The position numbers and the translations under genes are program-made. A stretch of DNA of 64,000 bases from a virus. Shown here piece by piece: positions 19,563-28,941 of the stretch. Where the stretch lies: IMG/VR virus record IMGVR_UViG_3300005537_000023, positions 1-64,000 of that record; one strand, given 5' to 3'. The notes below the pieces were generated by a model. It was given only the letters and a program-made list of their open reading frames with translations. It made no database searches and was not told where the DNA came from. Within the stretch, counting starts at the first letter, position 1, and every line of letters starts with the position of its first letter.

Positions 19563-20243
19563 GTGCCGTCTCCCGCCGCACGACTGAACCACCTCGGCGG
19601 AGGTGCGCAGAGCAATCTCGGCCCGAAGGCTGAGAGGCAGTTCATTGCGCGCGTGTGTCAGTCGCGCTGCCGTGACGAGTCGTACGGCCTCGTGTGCAGC
19701 GTCAACGTCAAGCTCAGTGGCAGCGTTGCGGACGTGGCCGCAAACGACATCTCATCGGCCTTCCTCGAAGTGGACTTTGGTGGCGGCGACTCCGACGAGT
19801 CGGCGTTCGCCATGGACTTGATCAACGGAACCTCGTTCCCCGCCATCGGCGGGTGCAACGTCTTCCTCAACTATCCGAAGACGGATGCGACGCAGCCCAA
19901 CATTGACGTCAGCGTGTCCGTTGGGAAGTATGAGGTTGGCGCGCAAGCCGCACTCGGCTGCCGACGCACGATCAAGGCGCGCACCGTCAACGGGACGAGC
20001 GCGATCCTGCCCATCCCCAAGTTCGCCGTCCAAGCCGTCTACGCCAACACAGCAATCGGCGTCGCTGCGGCGCAATTCGATCAACTCCGCGCGCCTGTCG
20101 TCGGCGCCGCCATCCTTTCCACACTCAACCTCGGAAAGACGCAGGCCACTAGCGTCCCGATTATCAACGGCGCGCGCGGATTCCAACTCACCGTTGCCAA
20201 CTCCACCGGCGATGCCGTCATCTTCAACCTGAGCCCCGCCTAA
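19563..20243 (+). CDS. Tandem capsid-candidate protein A, 226 aa
   Basis: GGGAGG precedes GTG 19563. The product is beta-rich throughout and paralogous to the next gene along its whole length. Shared blocks include QSNLGPKAERQFI, GLVCSVNVK, FGGGDSD, SFPAI, NVFLNYP, VGAQAALGCRRTIK, LPIPKFAVQA and VPIINGARGF. Long beta proteins in tandem, in the middle of the particle module with strong ribosome sites, are good candidates for the main coat. No membrane span. Two related major capsid proteins occur in some non-tailed membrane phages, which is the comparison I have in mind. Confidence 0.6.
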   Translation: MPSPAARLNHLGGGAQSNLGPKAERQFIARVCQSRCRDESYGLVCSVNVKLSGSVADVAANDISSAFLEVDFGGGDSDESAFAMDLINGTSFPAIGGCNVFLNYPKTDATQPNIDVSVSVGKYEVGAQAALGCRRTIKARTVNGTSAILPIPKFAVQAVYANTAIGVAAAQFDQLRAPVVGAAILSTLNLGKTQATSVPIINGARGFQLTVANSTGDAVIFNLSPA

Positions 20244-20977
20244 TGCCCCCCGCGATCTCCCGAGTCAACCACCGCGGCGGTGCTGCCCAGTCGAACCTTG
20301 GGCCGAAGGCGGAGCGTCAATTCATCGGCCGCGTCTGCACGTCCAACAGCGACACCGGGGCGGCCAACTACGAGTCCATTGGCCTCGTCTGCTCCGTCAA
20401 CGTCAAGCCCAGCACGGGCCTCACTGGCTTCGTGGACGCGGCCAACGTGGACATCTCGGACGCCTTCCTCACGATCGAATTCGGCGGCGGTGACAGCGAT
20501 CTGTCCGTCTTCGACATGGACTTGGTCGACGGGGTGAGTTTCCCTGCGATCGGCCAGATCAACGTCTTTCTCAACTACCCCATCCTCGTCCAGAATCCGC
20601 AGTCGCCGGTGGTCCAACCGCCGCTCGACATCTCGATCAGCGTGGGCAAGGGCTGCGTCGGTGCACAGGCGGCCCTCGGGTGCAGGCGGACGATCAAAGT
20701 GGGCGGACTCGGAAACAACGCCGCGAGCAACGTGCTGCCGATCCCCAAATTCGCCGTGCAGGCGATCTATGCGAACACGACGATCGGCGTCGCCACCGCG
20801 CAATTCGATCAAACCATCTCGACCGCAAACGGCTCCGCCGTCATCTCGACCATTTTGCTTGGGAAGACGCAGGCGTCGTGTGTCCCGATCATCAACGGGG
20901 CGCGCGGTTTCATCGTGACGTCCACGCAGGGCGCCACGACAGGAAATGCTATCATCTTCGAGTTGTCCCCCGCATAA
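20243..20977 (+). CDS. Tandem capsid-candidate protein B, 244 aa
   Basis: Starts in a TAATG overlap with protein A, so the two are translationally coupled and likely made in similar amounts. Aligns with A end to end, with small insertions near residues 32-45 and 105-120. Keeps the conserved cysteines in GLVCSVN and LGCRRTIK. I infer a heterodimeric or alternating coat, or a gene duplication that lets one copy diverge. Confidence 0.6.
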   Translation: MPPAISRVNHRGGAAQSNLGPKAERQFIGRVCTSNSDTGAANYESIGLVCSVNVKPSTGLTGFVDAANVDISDAFLTIEFGGGDSDLSVFDMDLVDGVSFPAIGQINVFLNYPILVQNPQSPVVQPPLDISISVGKGCVGAQAALGCRRTIKVGGLGNNAASNVLPIPKFAVQAIYANTTIGVATAQFDQTISTANGSAVISTILLGKTQASCVPIINGARGFIVTSTQGATTGNAIIFELSPA

Positions 20978-22103: not shown

Positions 22104-22766
22104 ATGTCGACCAAGATCCTTTCGTTTCGTCCCCGCGCTGCCCTTCTGCCCGTGCCGCAGCCGAAGCCGCTTGTTCGCGTTGGGGCAACCGCTCCGGCGC
22201 CCGGCCCTTCGATGACGGATCAGGCCCTCACCACGATCGGTGGCCCCAACTACTCCACGGAGGTGACGCTTGGCACCGCGGCCGGCGCCGTTGCCGGCTT
22301 CTTCGGCGGCGGCTGGCTGTGGAGCCTCCTCGGCGGCATCGGCGCGAACCTCGGCGGCCGGTACTTCGCGCAATCGCAGTGCGCGAAGAACGGCGGCGCG
22401 AAGTGCGCAACCCAGCCCGCGCAGGGTGGCTCGGCGCCGGCCGGAAGCGGCGGATCGATCGCCAAGGCGGCGGACGGATCCATGTCCATCTCTGTCGATC
22501 CGATGGTGGACGCCGTATTCTCGGACAACACCACGGCGCCCGTCCCAGCCGGCGCTGTCCTCGCTGGCCGCACGGCGCATCTGCTGACGCCGTCGGGCTT
22601 CGGCCTCGATGCACTCGTCGTCGGCTATGACAACTCCTCGGATGGCGTTGCGCTGCAACTCGCGAAGCTGCCCGACGGCACGCCGACGCCCCTGATCGCC
22701 CTCCTCGGTGGTGGCGGCCCGTCCACCTTCGCCATCCACCGCAGCAAACTGCAATCGGTTGCGTGA
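22104..22766 (+). CDS. Tagged glycine-zipper membrane protein, 220 aa
   Basis: The N-terminus ILSFRPRAALLPVPQPKPLV then RVGA is one of seven copies of a shared tag in this window. Residues 50-85 are a glycine-zipper hairpin (TLGTAAGAVAGFFGGG, LGGIGANLGGRYF). The C-terminal domain is beta-like (DALVVGYDNSSDGVALQL). Probably a particle membrane protein whose tag directs sorting or is removed during maturation; that is inference. Confidence 0.6.
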   Translation: MSTKILSFRPRAALLPVPQPKPLVRVGATAPAPGPSMTDQALTTIGGPNYSTEVTLGTAAGAVAGFFGGGWLWSLLGGIGANLGGRYFAQSQCAKNGGAKCATQPAQGGSAPAGSGGSIAKAADGSMSISVDPMVDAVFSDNTTAPVPAGAVLAGRTAHLLTPSGFGLDALVVGYDNSSDGVALQLAKLPDGTPTPLIALLGGGGPSTFAIHRSKLQSVA

Positions 22767-25193: not shown

Positions 25194-26996
25194 ATGCGCT
25201 TCTACGTCGCCAGCGCCTCCACCCTCATCATCGATCCGGCCGCGTTGCCGATGATCGTGCAGGCGGTGGACCGGCAACTGATCGACGATGCTGGACCCGC
25301 GTGGGGCCATTACGGCAACGTCTTCTTCGTCGAGTCCGTGAGTGACATTCCGAAGGACGCCGTGCCGATTGTCGTTTACGACGACGCCGATCAAGCCGGC
25401 GCGCTAGGCTGGCACACGGAGGAGTTGGGCGTCTTCTTCGGACGTATTTTCGTCCGCCCCGTGCTGGACAACGGCGGCGATCTCTACTCCAACCCGGCGC
25501 TCTCGCTCTCGTCCGTCATCTCGCACGAGGTGTTGGAGACGCTGATCGATCCCACAGTGAGCGATTGGAGCCAGCGGGCGGATGGGACGTTGGTGGCGAG
25601 TGAGGTGTGCCTTACTGGTGACACGGAAATCCCTCTACTGGACGGCACCGCGAGAACGATCGAGAGTCTCAGCGGCGAGCAATCATTTTGGGTATACAGC
25701 TGCACGCCTGACGGGCGAATAGTCCCGGGCAAGGGCCACTCGGCACGAAAAACCAGGGAGAACGCCGAGATCGTTGAGGTTGAGTTGGATAACGGCGCCA
25801 CCGTAAAGTGTACCGCGGACCATCCGTTCATGCTGCGCGATGGAAGTTACGCGCTGGCCGGGAGTCTTGGACCTGGCACATCTCTGATGCCGCTGTACCG
25901 GCGCAAGCAGAAGATAACCGGCGGCAACGACTATGAGCAGGTACTCGTCCCGTCGACGGAGACGTGGGAGTTTACCCACCGCATCACCTCGGATGAATGC
26001 CCGCGCGGCTACGTCAGGCATCACGTTGACTTCAACCGATTCAACAATGAGCCTACGAATCTCCGAGTGATGCGTGCCAACGAACACATCGCACTGCACG
26101 GAAACTACGCCAAGCATCTCTGGGAGCTTGGAAAGCATGGCTGGTTGAAACCGGCTAGCCCGGAAAAGAAGGCGCGCGACGCGGCGAGATTTGCAGCGTA
26201 CAACAAGACTCAGAAGCACAGAGACGAGGTACGCGAGGTGGGCAGGAAGGCCATGCGCGCGCTGTGGGAGAAGCCTGGGTTCAGGGAGCACCACTCCGCG
26301 CGCGGCCGACGAATCATGGACGCGTACAATGCTTCGGAGGCGCAGGCGGCGGCGCACGCTAGATTCCTGGCGGATCCGGAACGACGGGCGGCGTGGAGAG
26401 CCAACATCGCGCGGTCGCAGAATGCACCGCATCTGAAAAAACTGCACTCGGAAACAGGGAAGCGGGTGCAGGGACAGCGCAGTCCAGAGTACAAGAGCCG
26501 ACTGAGTCAGTTTGCAATGCATACCAGGTGGCATGAGCGTGGTAACCGAACGTCGGATAAATGCGAATTCTGCAAGATCGCGGCGTCTCCGCTAACGAAT
26601 CACAAGGTTGTGGCGGTTCGCAAAGCTGGCAGATCCGACGTATGGGACATCACGGTTGACGTGCACAACAACTTCGCCGTAAGCGCCGGCGTTTTCGTCC
26701 ACAACTGCGATCCAGTCGAAAGCGACGCATACCCCATCGCCGTCCTCGACAAGCCAGTGATGGTGTCCAACTTCGTCCTCCCCGCGTGGTTCGACGCGCA
26801 GGCATCGCAAGGGCCGTTCGACAAGATGGGCAAGCTCACCGCGCCTTTCACGATGACGCCCGGTGGCTACCTCGTGACGATGGTGGCCGGCCCTTCGTCC
26901 GAAGAAGGCGCGCGGCAGGTGGGCAGGCAACAGGCGCGCGCGGCGGCAGGACGCAGCGGCAAGCGGCGCAGCAGTGGCCGCATGACGTGGACGTGA
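25194..26996 (+). CDS. Metalloprotease-like virion-module protein carrying an intein, 600 aa precursor
   Basis: The host protein is residues 1-138 plus 505-600, 234 aa after splicing. It has SHEVLETLIDP (HEVLE at 111-115), an HExxx zinc-type motif, and the intein interrupts the highly placed EV-CDP motif (from memory, phage and bacterial relatives read HEVLExxVDP ... EVCDP ... VSDF). C-terminal extein continues VMVSNFVLPAWFDAQASQG, PGGYLVTMV, and ends in a basic tail. Intein is residues 139-504. Likely a metallopeptidase acting in particle maturation or entry; peptidase activity is inferred from the motif only. Confidence 0.75.
   Translation: MRFYVASASTLIIDPAALPMIVQAVDRQLIDDAGPAWGHYGNVFFVESVSDIPKDAVPIVVYDDADQAGALGWHTEELGVFFGRIFVRPVLDNGGDLYSNPALSLSSVISHEVLETLIDPTVSDWSQRADGTLVASEVCLTGDTEIPLLDGTARTIESLSGEQSFWVYSCTPDGRIVPGKGHSARKTRENAEIVEVELDNGATVKCTADHPFMLRDGSYALAGSLGPGTSLMPLYRRKQKITGGNDYEQVLVPSTETWEFTHRITSDECPRGYVRHHVDFNRFNNEPTNLRVMRANEHIALHGNYAKHLWELGKHGWLKPASPEKKARDAARFAAYNKTQKHRDEVREVGRKAMRALWEKPGFREHHSARGRRIMDAYNASEAQAAAHARFLADPERRAAWRANIARSQNAPHLKKLHSETGKRVQGQRSPEYKSRLSQFAMHTRWHERGNRTSDKCEFCKIAASPLTNHKVVAVRKAGRSDVWDITVDVHNNFAVSAGVFVHNCDPVESDAYPIAVLDKPVMVSNFVLPAWFDAQASQGPFDKMGKLTAPFTMTPGGYLVTMVAGPSSEEGARQVGRQQARAAAGRSGKRRSSGRMTWT
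25608..26705 (+). mobile_element. Intein with HNH endonuclease, 366 residues
   Basis: All splicing blocks can be read. Block A: CLTGDTEIPLLDG with Cys1. Block B: CTADHPFMLRDGS (TADH at 69-72). Block F/G: VWDITVDVHNNFAVSAG and terminal HN, followed by Cys as +1 extein residue. Between B and F lies an HNH module: RHHVDFNRFNNEPTNLRV and NEHIALH, with His138/139, Asn and His. A second pair CEFC follows. The insertion point is within the protein's predicted metal/active-site region, typical of inteins. Less GC-rich than its host gene, as expected for a mobile element. Confidence 0.92.
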
Positions 26997-26999
26997 CGC

Positions 27000-27692
27000 A
27001 TGGAGAGTTGGTGGGGCTACATCGGCGGCGCGGCGTTGACGCTCGCCATCTTCGCGTGGTGGCGAAAGGGCCATGCCTCGCCTGCGTCCGGCCCCGCGCT
27101 TGACACGAGCGGCGGAAAGGCGCCGCCATGGTGGACGCCCGCGGACTACAAGGCGCTCGCCGCGACGTCCGCGCGCCTAGGCATCAACCCGGCCAACCTT
27201 CTCGCCATCATGCGCAGCGAGTCCGGGCTCAACCCGTCGGCGATGTATCCAGGCGGCATCGCGCGCGGCCTCACACAAATCACTGAAGCCGGGCGCGCGT
27301 CCGCTGGCCTATCTGAGTCCGACTTCGAGGACTTCCAGAATTGGTCAATCCAAGAGCAGTTGCCGCGCATCGAGAAGTACATGCGGGAGGAGTTCGCTGG
27401 CTCGCCTCCGCAGACGGCTGGCGGCTTATACGCGTACAACTTCCTCCCTGCCTACGCGCGCGAAAAGGGCACGGCGCCGGATACGGTGCTCGCGAGCGTG
27501 GAGGACTTCCCCGCTGATTCCGCGCTGGACTATGACGACGACGGCCAGTACGAAGTACGCGATCTTTCCAACCGCCTCGCCCGCTACGGTGCGCGGAAGG
27601 ATGACGGCTCGCCTGTAGACACGCTCTACTTGGGCGCCTTGCAGGGCCTTCGCGACGCCACCGGGGATCAGTCCATCTCGCCGGTGTGGTAA
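27000..27692 (+). CDS. Membrane-anchored lytic transglycosylase, 230 aa
   Basis: Residues 4-22 are a membrane helix (WWGYIGGAALTLAIFAWW). The catalytic region has LAATSARLGINPANLLAIMRSESGLNP with Glu74, then GIARGLTQITEAG, the SLT goose-type lysozyme signature. It cleaves the glycan backbone of peptidoglycan. A tethered transglycosylase fits an entry or lysis enzyme carried in a particle membrane. Lies 3 bp after the intein gene. Confidence 0.82.
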   Translation: MESWWGYIGGAALTLAIFAWWRKGHASPASGPALDTSGGKAPPWWTPADYKALAATSARLGINPANLLAIMRSESGLNPSAMYPGGIARGLTQITEAGRASAGLSESDFEDFQNWSIQEQLPRIEKYMREEFAGSPPQTAGGLYAYNFLPAYAREKGTAPDTVLASVEDFPADSALDYDDDGQYEVRDLSNRLARYGARKDDGSPVDTLYLGALQGLRDATGDQSISPVW

Positions 27693-28227: not shown

Positions 28228-28941
28228 ATGCCCGATGCCTTCTGGAAAGCACTTGGTTGGTTAGGGGCCGGCGGCCTCGCGATCTACTTCTGGAGACGTC
28301 TCATGCCCCAAGGCCCCGCCGCCCCCACGTGCTCGCGCCAGTATCCCGCCTTCAACCACGGCGGCGCACGCGACATGGCCAATGTCAGCCTGATCGTGCT
28401 GCACTCCACCGAAGGGCCGTCCGCGCTATCCACTGCGCGCTGGTTCGCCACGCCCCTCCCCGTGTCCGAGGGCGGCCCGTACTCCGCGCACGTCGTGGTT
28501 GGCGATGATGGCTGCTATCGGTGCGTGGACGATGGAGACGTGGCGTGGGCGGCGAGTATCGTGAATCCGTTTTCCCTCAACCTCGAACAGGCCGGGTACG
28601 CCGCCTGGACGCGGGACGAGTGGCTTTCCCACGACGCCACCCTTCGCGCCGCCGGTGGCCAGGTGGGCGGATGGTCCAGGGAATTCGACATCCCCTTGCG
28701 CTTCCTTCGCGCCGCCGATCTCCTCGCCCTTCAAGCATCCGGCTGGGATAAGGCGCACGGGGGCGTCACGACGCACCACGAAATCAGCCGCGCGTGGCCC
28801 GCGTCCAGCACCCACGTGGATCCCGGCGATGGCTACCCGCTAGACGTACTTTTTTCGTACGCCGGTGGTACAATCACCCCCGGAGCCCCCATCGCTCGCA
28901 TCTCCGGTTTTCTCCACCTGAACAGAAAGGACAACCAATGA
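28228..28941 (+). CDS. Membrane-anchored N-acetylmuramoyl-L-alanine amidase, 237 aa
   Basis: Amidase_2 family zinc hydrolase that cuts the bond between MurNAc and the stem peptide. Residues 5-23 form a membrane helix (FWKALGWLGAGGLAIYFW). Zinc and catalytic motifs: IVLHSTEG (His59), YSAHVVVG (His88), and STHVDPGDGYP (His196, Asp198), in the right order and spacing. Start set at ATG 28228, following a 103-bp non-coding gap with a direct repeat CTACCGGAC (twice at about 28145-28162). Third member of the lysis/entry cassette. Confidence 0.88.
   Translation: MPDAFWKALGWLGAGGLAIYFWRRLMPQGPAAPTCSRQYPAFNHGGARDMANVSLIVLHSTEGPSALSTARWFATPLPVSEGGPYSAHVVVGDDGCYRCVDDGDVAWAASIVNPFSLNLEQAGYAAWTRDEWLSHDATLRAAGGQVGGWSREFDIPLRFLRAADLLALQASGWDKAHGGVTTHHEISRAWPASSTHVDPGDGYPLDVLFSYAGGTITPGAPIARISGFLHLNRKDNQ

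Follow-up and report, generated by a model that had tools for sequence, protein, structure and literature searches.

The gene at 25194..26996, on the plus strand with all its parts, very probably carries a standard bifunctional HNH intein, that is, a splicing domain split by an HNH homing endonuclease and inserted in frame into a zincin-like gene of a bacterial virus. The stretch of DNA analyzed, which we call the window, is made up of positions 1-64000 of an IMG/VR-class virus record with a length of 73,232 bases, and it contains no tRNA genes. The precursor frame is open from the ATG at 25194 to the stop codon at 26994-26996, encoding 600 residues, and homologues begin at the matching residue. 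Translation, matches in Pfam, PHROGs and NCBIfam, and alignments delimit an intein of 366 residues (precursor residues 139-504) at 25608..26705, exact to the base where a preliminary description had placed it. It starts CLTGDTEIPLLDG, ends GVFVHN, and is followed directly by a Cys. The flanks were delimited by homology to intein-free relatives: the N-extein consists of residues 1-138 (25194..25607) and the C-extein of residues 139-234 (26706..26993), starting with Cys+1, D140, P141, V142 and E143. Removal of the intein in silico joins them into a protein of 234 residues. The insertion point is E-V/C-D-P, between V138 and C139; this position, the extein motif HEVLE and the length of the joined extein are all as the preliminary description had read them.

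Chance is excluded for the intein call by the matches of the intein to Intein_splicing of Pfam (E 1.7e-13; 51.1 bits, the cut-off being 35.8), to intein_Nterm of NCBIfam (TIGR01445, E 6.2e-11) and, over its whole length, to NF052663 (E 5.5e-40), its best match among curated models. C1, the T69-x-x-H72 block, H365-N366 and C+1 are all present, as in an ordinary Cys1-class intein. The N-terminal splicing block with Cys1 (CLTGDTEIPLLDG, 25608..25646), which lies within the TIGR01445 match, we take to be block A, and the splicing block with T69-x-x-H72 (CTADHPFMLRDG, 25803..25844) is presumably block B. In an alignment of seven inteins, C1, T69, H72 and N366 are invariant (7/7). The C-terminal splicing region (26637..26705) ends in His365-Asn366, was matched by Intein_splicing up to residue 366, and aligns with seven relatives. 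The C-terminal intein model of NCBIfam taken alone gives a weak match (E 0.19 for the intein and 0.0082 for the precursor), and the His usual before "NF" in this block is shifted by one (VHNNF), at a place where relatives vary too.

The HNH catalytic residues are located between the two splicing halves, in the motif RHHVDFNRFNNEPTNLRVMRANEHIALHG (26016..26102). For this module the Pfam match is weak (HNH_3, E 0.0034, below the cut-off of that model) and the PHROGs match stronger (phrog_7545, HNH endonuclease, E 1.2e-6), and H138, H139, D141, N146, N147, P149, N151, H160 and H164 are invariant in the alignment of seven inteins. It is followed by a variable, charged linker (26133..26567), poorly conserved among aligned relatives, which is probably the DNA-recognition part. 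A CEFC pair, perhaps with a zinc or redox role, is found near the end of the intein, at 26562-26573, and cysteine pairs also occur in the intein of locus L071 described below. The intein is complete and keeps its HNH residues, in line with the earlier report of all splice blocks and an HNH module.

Could this arrangement be an artefact of assembly or gene fusion, in which an intein fragment was joined to a host gene? The window belongs to a single environmental contig, a second record of which was not found, and this would leave room for such an event. However, the reading frame continues through both junctions, the termini are canonical, and the two extein halves fit the alignment with intein-free relatives exactly, neither lacking a residue nor having one too many, which makes an artefact exceedingly improbable. 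The third-position GC of the intein is 0.705, the mean over genes being 0.815 (s.d. 0.056), and just 4 of 67 genes fall below the intein; this fits a later arrival of the intein, both the difference and the support it lends being modest.

The joined extein matched none of 50,697 phage records. It had eight plasmid matches, the best of which, from Streptomyces sp. RLB1-9, is 45.8% identical and covers residues 5-204 in one piece. Scans from an eight-sequence alignment yielded 95 relatives in viral contigs and 187 in genome contigs, of which the best 80 were kept in each case; together with the eight plasmid loci this gave 168 loci besides the window, some of them near copies, and 110 after removal of rows more than 75% identical and of odd lengths. 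The preliminary description had called for a search for intein-free homologues with the junction intact, and such homologues exist: all 168 loci are unbroken through the site of the window's intein, and many read a continuous EVCD. Two of the genes are split by a frame change (L014, L166) and one is cut at the contig end (L145). According to the intein profile, 167 of the 168 loci are without any intein, L071 being the sole exception. The empty sites are known in distant relatives only, with at most about 50% identity. Scans with the precursor, with the joined extein and with the tandem paralogues at 19563-20977 turned up no virus close to that of the window and no sibling allele free of the intein, and the mobility of the window intein is for this reason something that we infer.

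Inteins occur sporadically in the family, as fits a selfish homing element, and the window insert is probably self-spreading. It might instead be a degenerate intein, which still splices, whose HNH endonuclease is inactive and whose homing is lost, and which is kept because precise loss is rare. The fact that the window holds the only intein-bearing copy at this site among 169 loci, with no sibling allele found, would suit such a history, but the frame is intact and the HNH residues invariant among seven relatives are all retained, so that we regard degeneration as unlikely. If the element is a bifunctional HNH intein, the precursor would be made and Cys1, the T-x-x-H block, His365-Asn366 and Cys+1 would carry out ordinary Cys-type splicing. 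This would yield the 234-residue protein and bring E137 and D140 to a distance of three residues, next to the HExxE helix, and the freed intein would cut intein-free copies of the gene, into which the intein would then be copied by homing. We infer splicing, endonuclease activity, homing and metal binding in this way, as well as the inactivity of the unspliced precursor.

The interrupted protein belongs to a family with a putative metal site. Its HEVLE motif (HExxE, H111 to E115, 25524..25538) corresponds to a putative metal-binding helix, and H111, E112, E115, D119, E137 and D140 (window numbering) are invariant in all 78 aligned homologues, in which H74, G72, S110, P120 and the GGY at 191-193 are nearly invariant. 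The intein stands between V138 and C139 and therefore separates the invariant E137 and D140. The HExxH zinc motif is absent; HExxE is present in 78/78 rows, the scans that gathered them having used an HExxE pattern. An AlphaFold2 model of the intein-free Streptomyces homologue (L095) has a mean pLDDT of 94.7 and places the HExxE motif on helix 104-117. In a VIA search with this model, 46 of the 50 rows were metallopeptidase-type domains, mostly by title and including a few venom proteins, and the remaining four were two glucuronidases and two proteins of YbeY type; Z reached at most 7.9, just below the tool's caution line of 8. The likeness is to zincins such as the zinc-dependent peptidase 3lmc and matrix metalloproteases, in predicted fold over the N-terminal two thirds; these zincin metallopeptidases have HExxH whereas the extein has HExxE, and no significant sequence match joins them. 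Foldseek against the PDB gave no match at E <= 0.001 with the same model, the top rows including both glycoside hydrolases and metalloproteases. In a viral library, an uncultured-phage protein without a name came first (E 9.6e-13), and annotated metalloproteases with weak E-values took ranks 3 to 6.

Since the confident model of the homologue resembles zincin metallopeptidases, an insertion beside a metal site is plausible, and we propose a putative metal site to which HExxE and, as an additional ligand, E137 would contribute. The earlier suggestion that the intein lies inside the likely metal or active site is borne out to this extent, with the invariant E137 and D140 flanking the junction in a protein whose homologue has a zincin-like predicted fold. 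Segments of eight residues around the window's intein site rank 30 of 226 in conservation, above average and not at the peak; the HExxE segment ranks first, in homologue scans that selected for HExxE. Placement beside essential residues can be understood as the outcome of selection on the element, because its loss must then be precise.

Profile libraries give the family no name. Nothing convincing was found for the joined extein in Pfam or PHROGs, Pfam found nothing over the zincin-like region of 10 homologues, and NCBIfam gave only insignificant matches over this region for 10 proteins. In a profile search against solved structures, only AP-2 adaptor subunits (E 0.035) and a small terminase (E 1.4) came up, which were taken as chance matches. 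As the motif is HExxE and not HExxH, we do not file the extein as a known peptidase family. In Rhizobium sp. Pop5 (L012:2935-5391) one protein combines the zincin-like region with a phospholipase D-like domain that has a weak DrmC match, and genes of similar length in Paraburkholderia (L164, L168, L170, L173) also contain the zincin-like region.

The exception among the 168 loci is a second intein in the same host family. L071 (contig IMGVR_UViG_3300036766_002281) was found by the extein scan, and the same contig appears as L187 in the intein scan. At L071:6558-8561 it carries a gene of the extein family with a related HNH intein of 400 residues (intein profile E 1.5e-71), which stands between ILDTSDVA and SALGYHD. 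In the numbering of the window extein this insertion site falls at about residue 69, shortly before the nearly invariant H74, and eight-residue segments around it rank 17 to 23 of 226 in conservation, again above average and not at the peak. A terminase large subunit (phrog_17415, E 4.6e-43) is encoded three called frames upstream of this gene; in the neighbour scan, 97 of 287 neighbour frames were run against PHROGs, and L071 and L020 were inspected individually. In a tree of 41 inteins, those of the window and of L071 are placed together with four more inteins in an open group (92/73), and since long branches meet there, the tree gives no conclusion on a shared origin of the two. The host-protein family has apparently been invaded twice by such inteins, at different sites. 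What is new and unexpected is this second insertion site, where the L071 intein stands beside another conserved His.

If both inteins are found next to conserved residues, could splicing serve the protein itself? In such a scheme the intein would be a retained regulatory switch, and splicing would turn on a metallopeptidase resembling a zymogen at a certain time or under a certain condition, for example redox, by way of the CEFC pair. Insertion beside invariant putative ligands, and beside a conserved His in the second intein of the family, would be in keeping with it. Nevertheless, all 168 other family loci are without an intein at the window's site and 167 of them without any, and a position in functional motifs is typical of inteins in general according to a survey of mycobacteriophage inteins (PMC5050341); a switch of this kind therefore seems very improbable. 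The preliminary idea that splicing may time the activity of the protein finds no support, given that none of the 168 other loci has an intein in this position. We would give equally little credence to its extended form, in which the zincin-like family would be a recurrent intein target, each of its two known inteins would split a metal-site motif, and in these viruses splicing would also serve to activate a zymogen-like metallopeptidase late in infection.

Directly downstream of the intein gene are a transglycosylase-like gene (27000-27692) and an amidase-like gene (28303-28941), a lysis or entry cassette; the assignment of the intein host protein to the particle is a tentative one. Upstream, the tandem genes 19563-20243 and 20243-20977 are 65% identical and are candidates for capsid proteins of an unusual virus; no relative of them was found in phage records, in two viral scans or among sequences of solved structures, and the structure model of the 20243-20977 product has a mean pLDDT of 34.3. 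Scanning of structural-region genes of the window and of L006 found no terminase, portal or tail family: in two scans lysis-type genes were the only ones with matches of this sort, and in another none stood among the 25 families listed out of 56. The virus may be tailless. Many small genes there begin with a hydrophobic stretch. Judged by eye, the otherwise different proteins starting at 22104, 22963, 23263, 31473, 31746 and 32884 have a common N-terminus like "lSTRPRl....VRVGA", which is perhaps a targeting or processing signal.

Relatives of the window intein were found in ribonucleotide reductases, dCTP deaminase, gyrase B, terminases and portals. Among the matches listed in one pattern scan (at least 80 loci; seeded with seven inteins, three of them portal inteins), 52 of 76 host-gene flanks are T4-type portal (PF07230), the others including terminases and RtcB. 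These 76 flanks came from 85 intein-matching frames, of which one was too short and eight were dropped as near copies or as belonging to the contig of L071. By eye, the portal genes L001:2783-6619 and L178:527-4688 apparently have two and three inteins, respectively, and the 576-residue gene L004:3388-5118, a portal neighbour, contains another intein-like insert. Inteins also occur in Lon and ClpP proteases. Terminase and portal inteins are present in mycobacteriophages as well, as the survey reports (PMC5050341). Thus the earlier view that inteins are uncommon in proteins of the particle module does not hold for this kind of intein, and the portal and terminase flanks together with the survey indicate that particle genes are normal intein hosts.

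The intein itself is of an ordinary, already known kind, and the less usual part is its host, a metallopeptidase-like protein of an uncharacterized zincin-like family. Among the titles and abstract openings listed for phage inteins, viral HNH inteins and HEXXE, no intein in this extein family was found. An unannotated and widespread family, with 95 viral and 187 genome stretches as relatives, hereby joins the proteins invaded by inteins, at two different sites that each lie beside conserved residues. Intein-free and intein-bearing homologues are at hand for a clean test of splicing and of metal binding, and attention is drawn to a family unnamed in the profile libraries tried (Pfam, PHROGs and NCBIfam, for the members scanned).

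Comparison with known systems places the element more precisely. The mycobacteriophage terminase, RecB-like and portal inteins lie in functional motifs, as does the window intein, but all phage exteins in that survey bind nucleic acid after splicing, a set outside which the metallopeptidase-like extein falls (PMC5050341). NF052663 describes an intein-containing RtcB family; its extein is RtcB, and the match to the window is confined to the intein part. The portal and terminase inteins of environmental phages (L001-L004, L178, L180-L259) belong to the same splicing and HNH family at 29-35% identity, and several are in virion or packaging genes; their host proteins and insertion sites are unlike those of the window. 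The dCTP deaminase intein of Aphanizomenon phage vB_AphaS-CL131 has the same block order and HNH motif and is 29% identical to the window intein over 305 aligned columns. Its host, a nucleotide-metabolism enzyme, differs from that of the window, and its authors compared it with a homing-endonuclease intein of Thermococcus (PMC6293099). They report that this relative excised itself in E. coli (PMC6293099), which supports the reading of the window insert as a bifunctional HNH intein from beyond the sequence.
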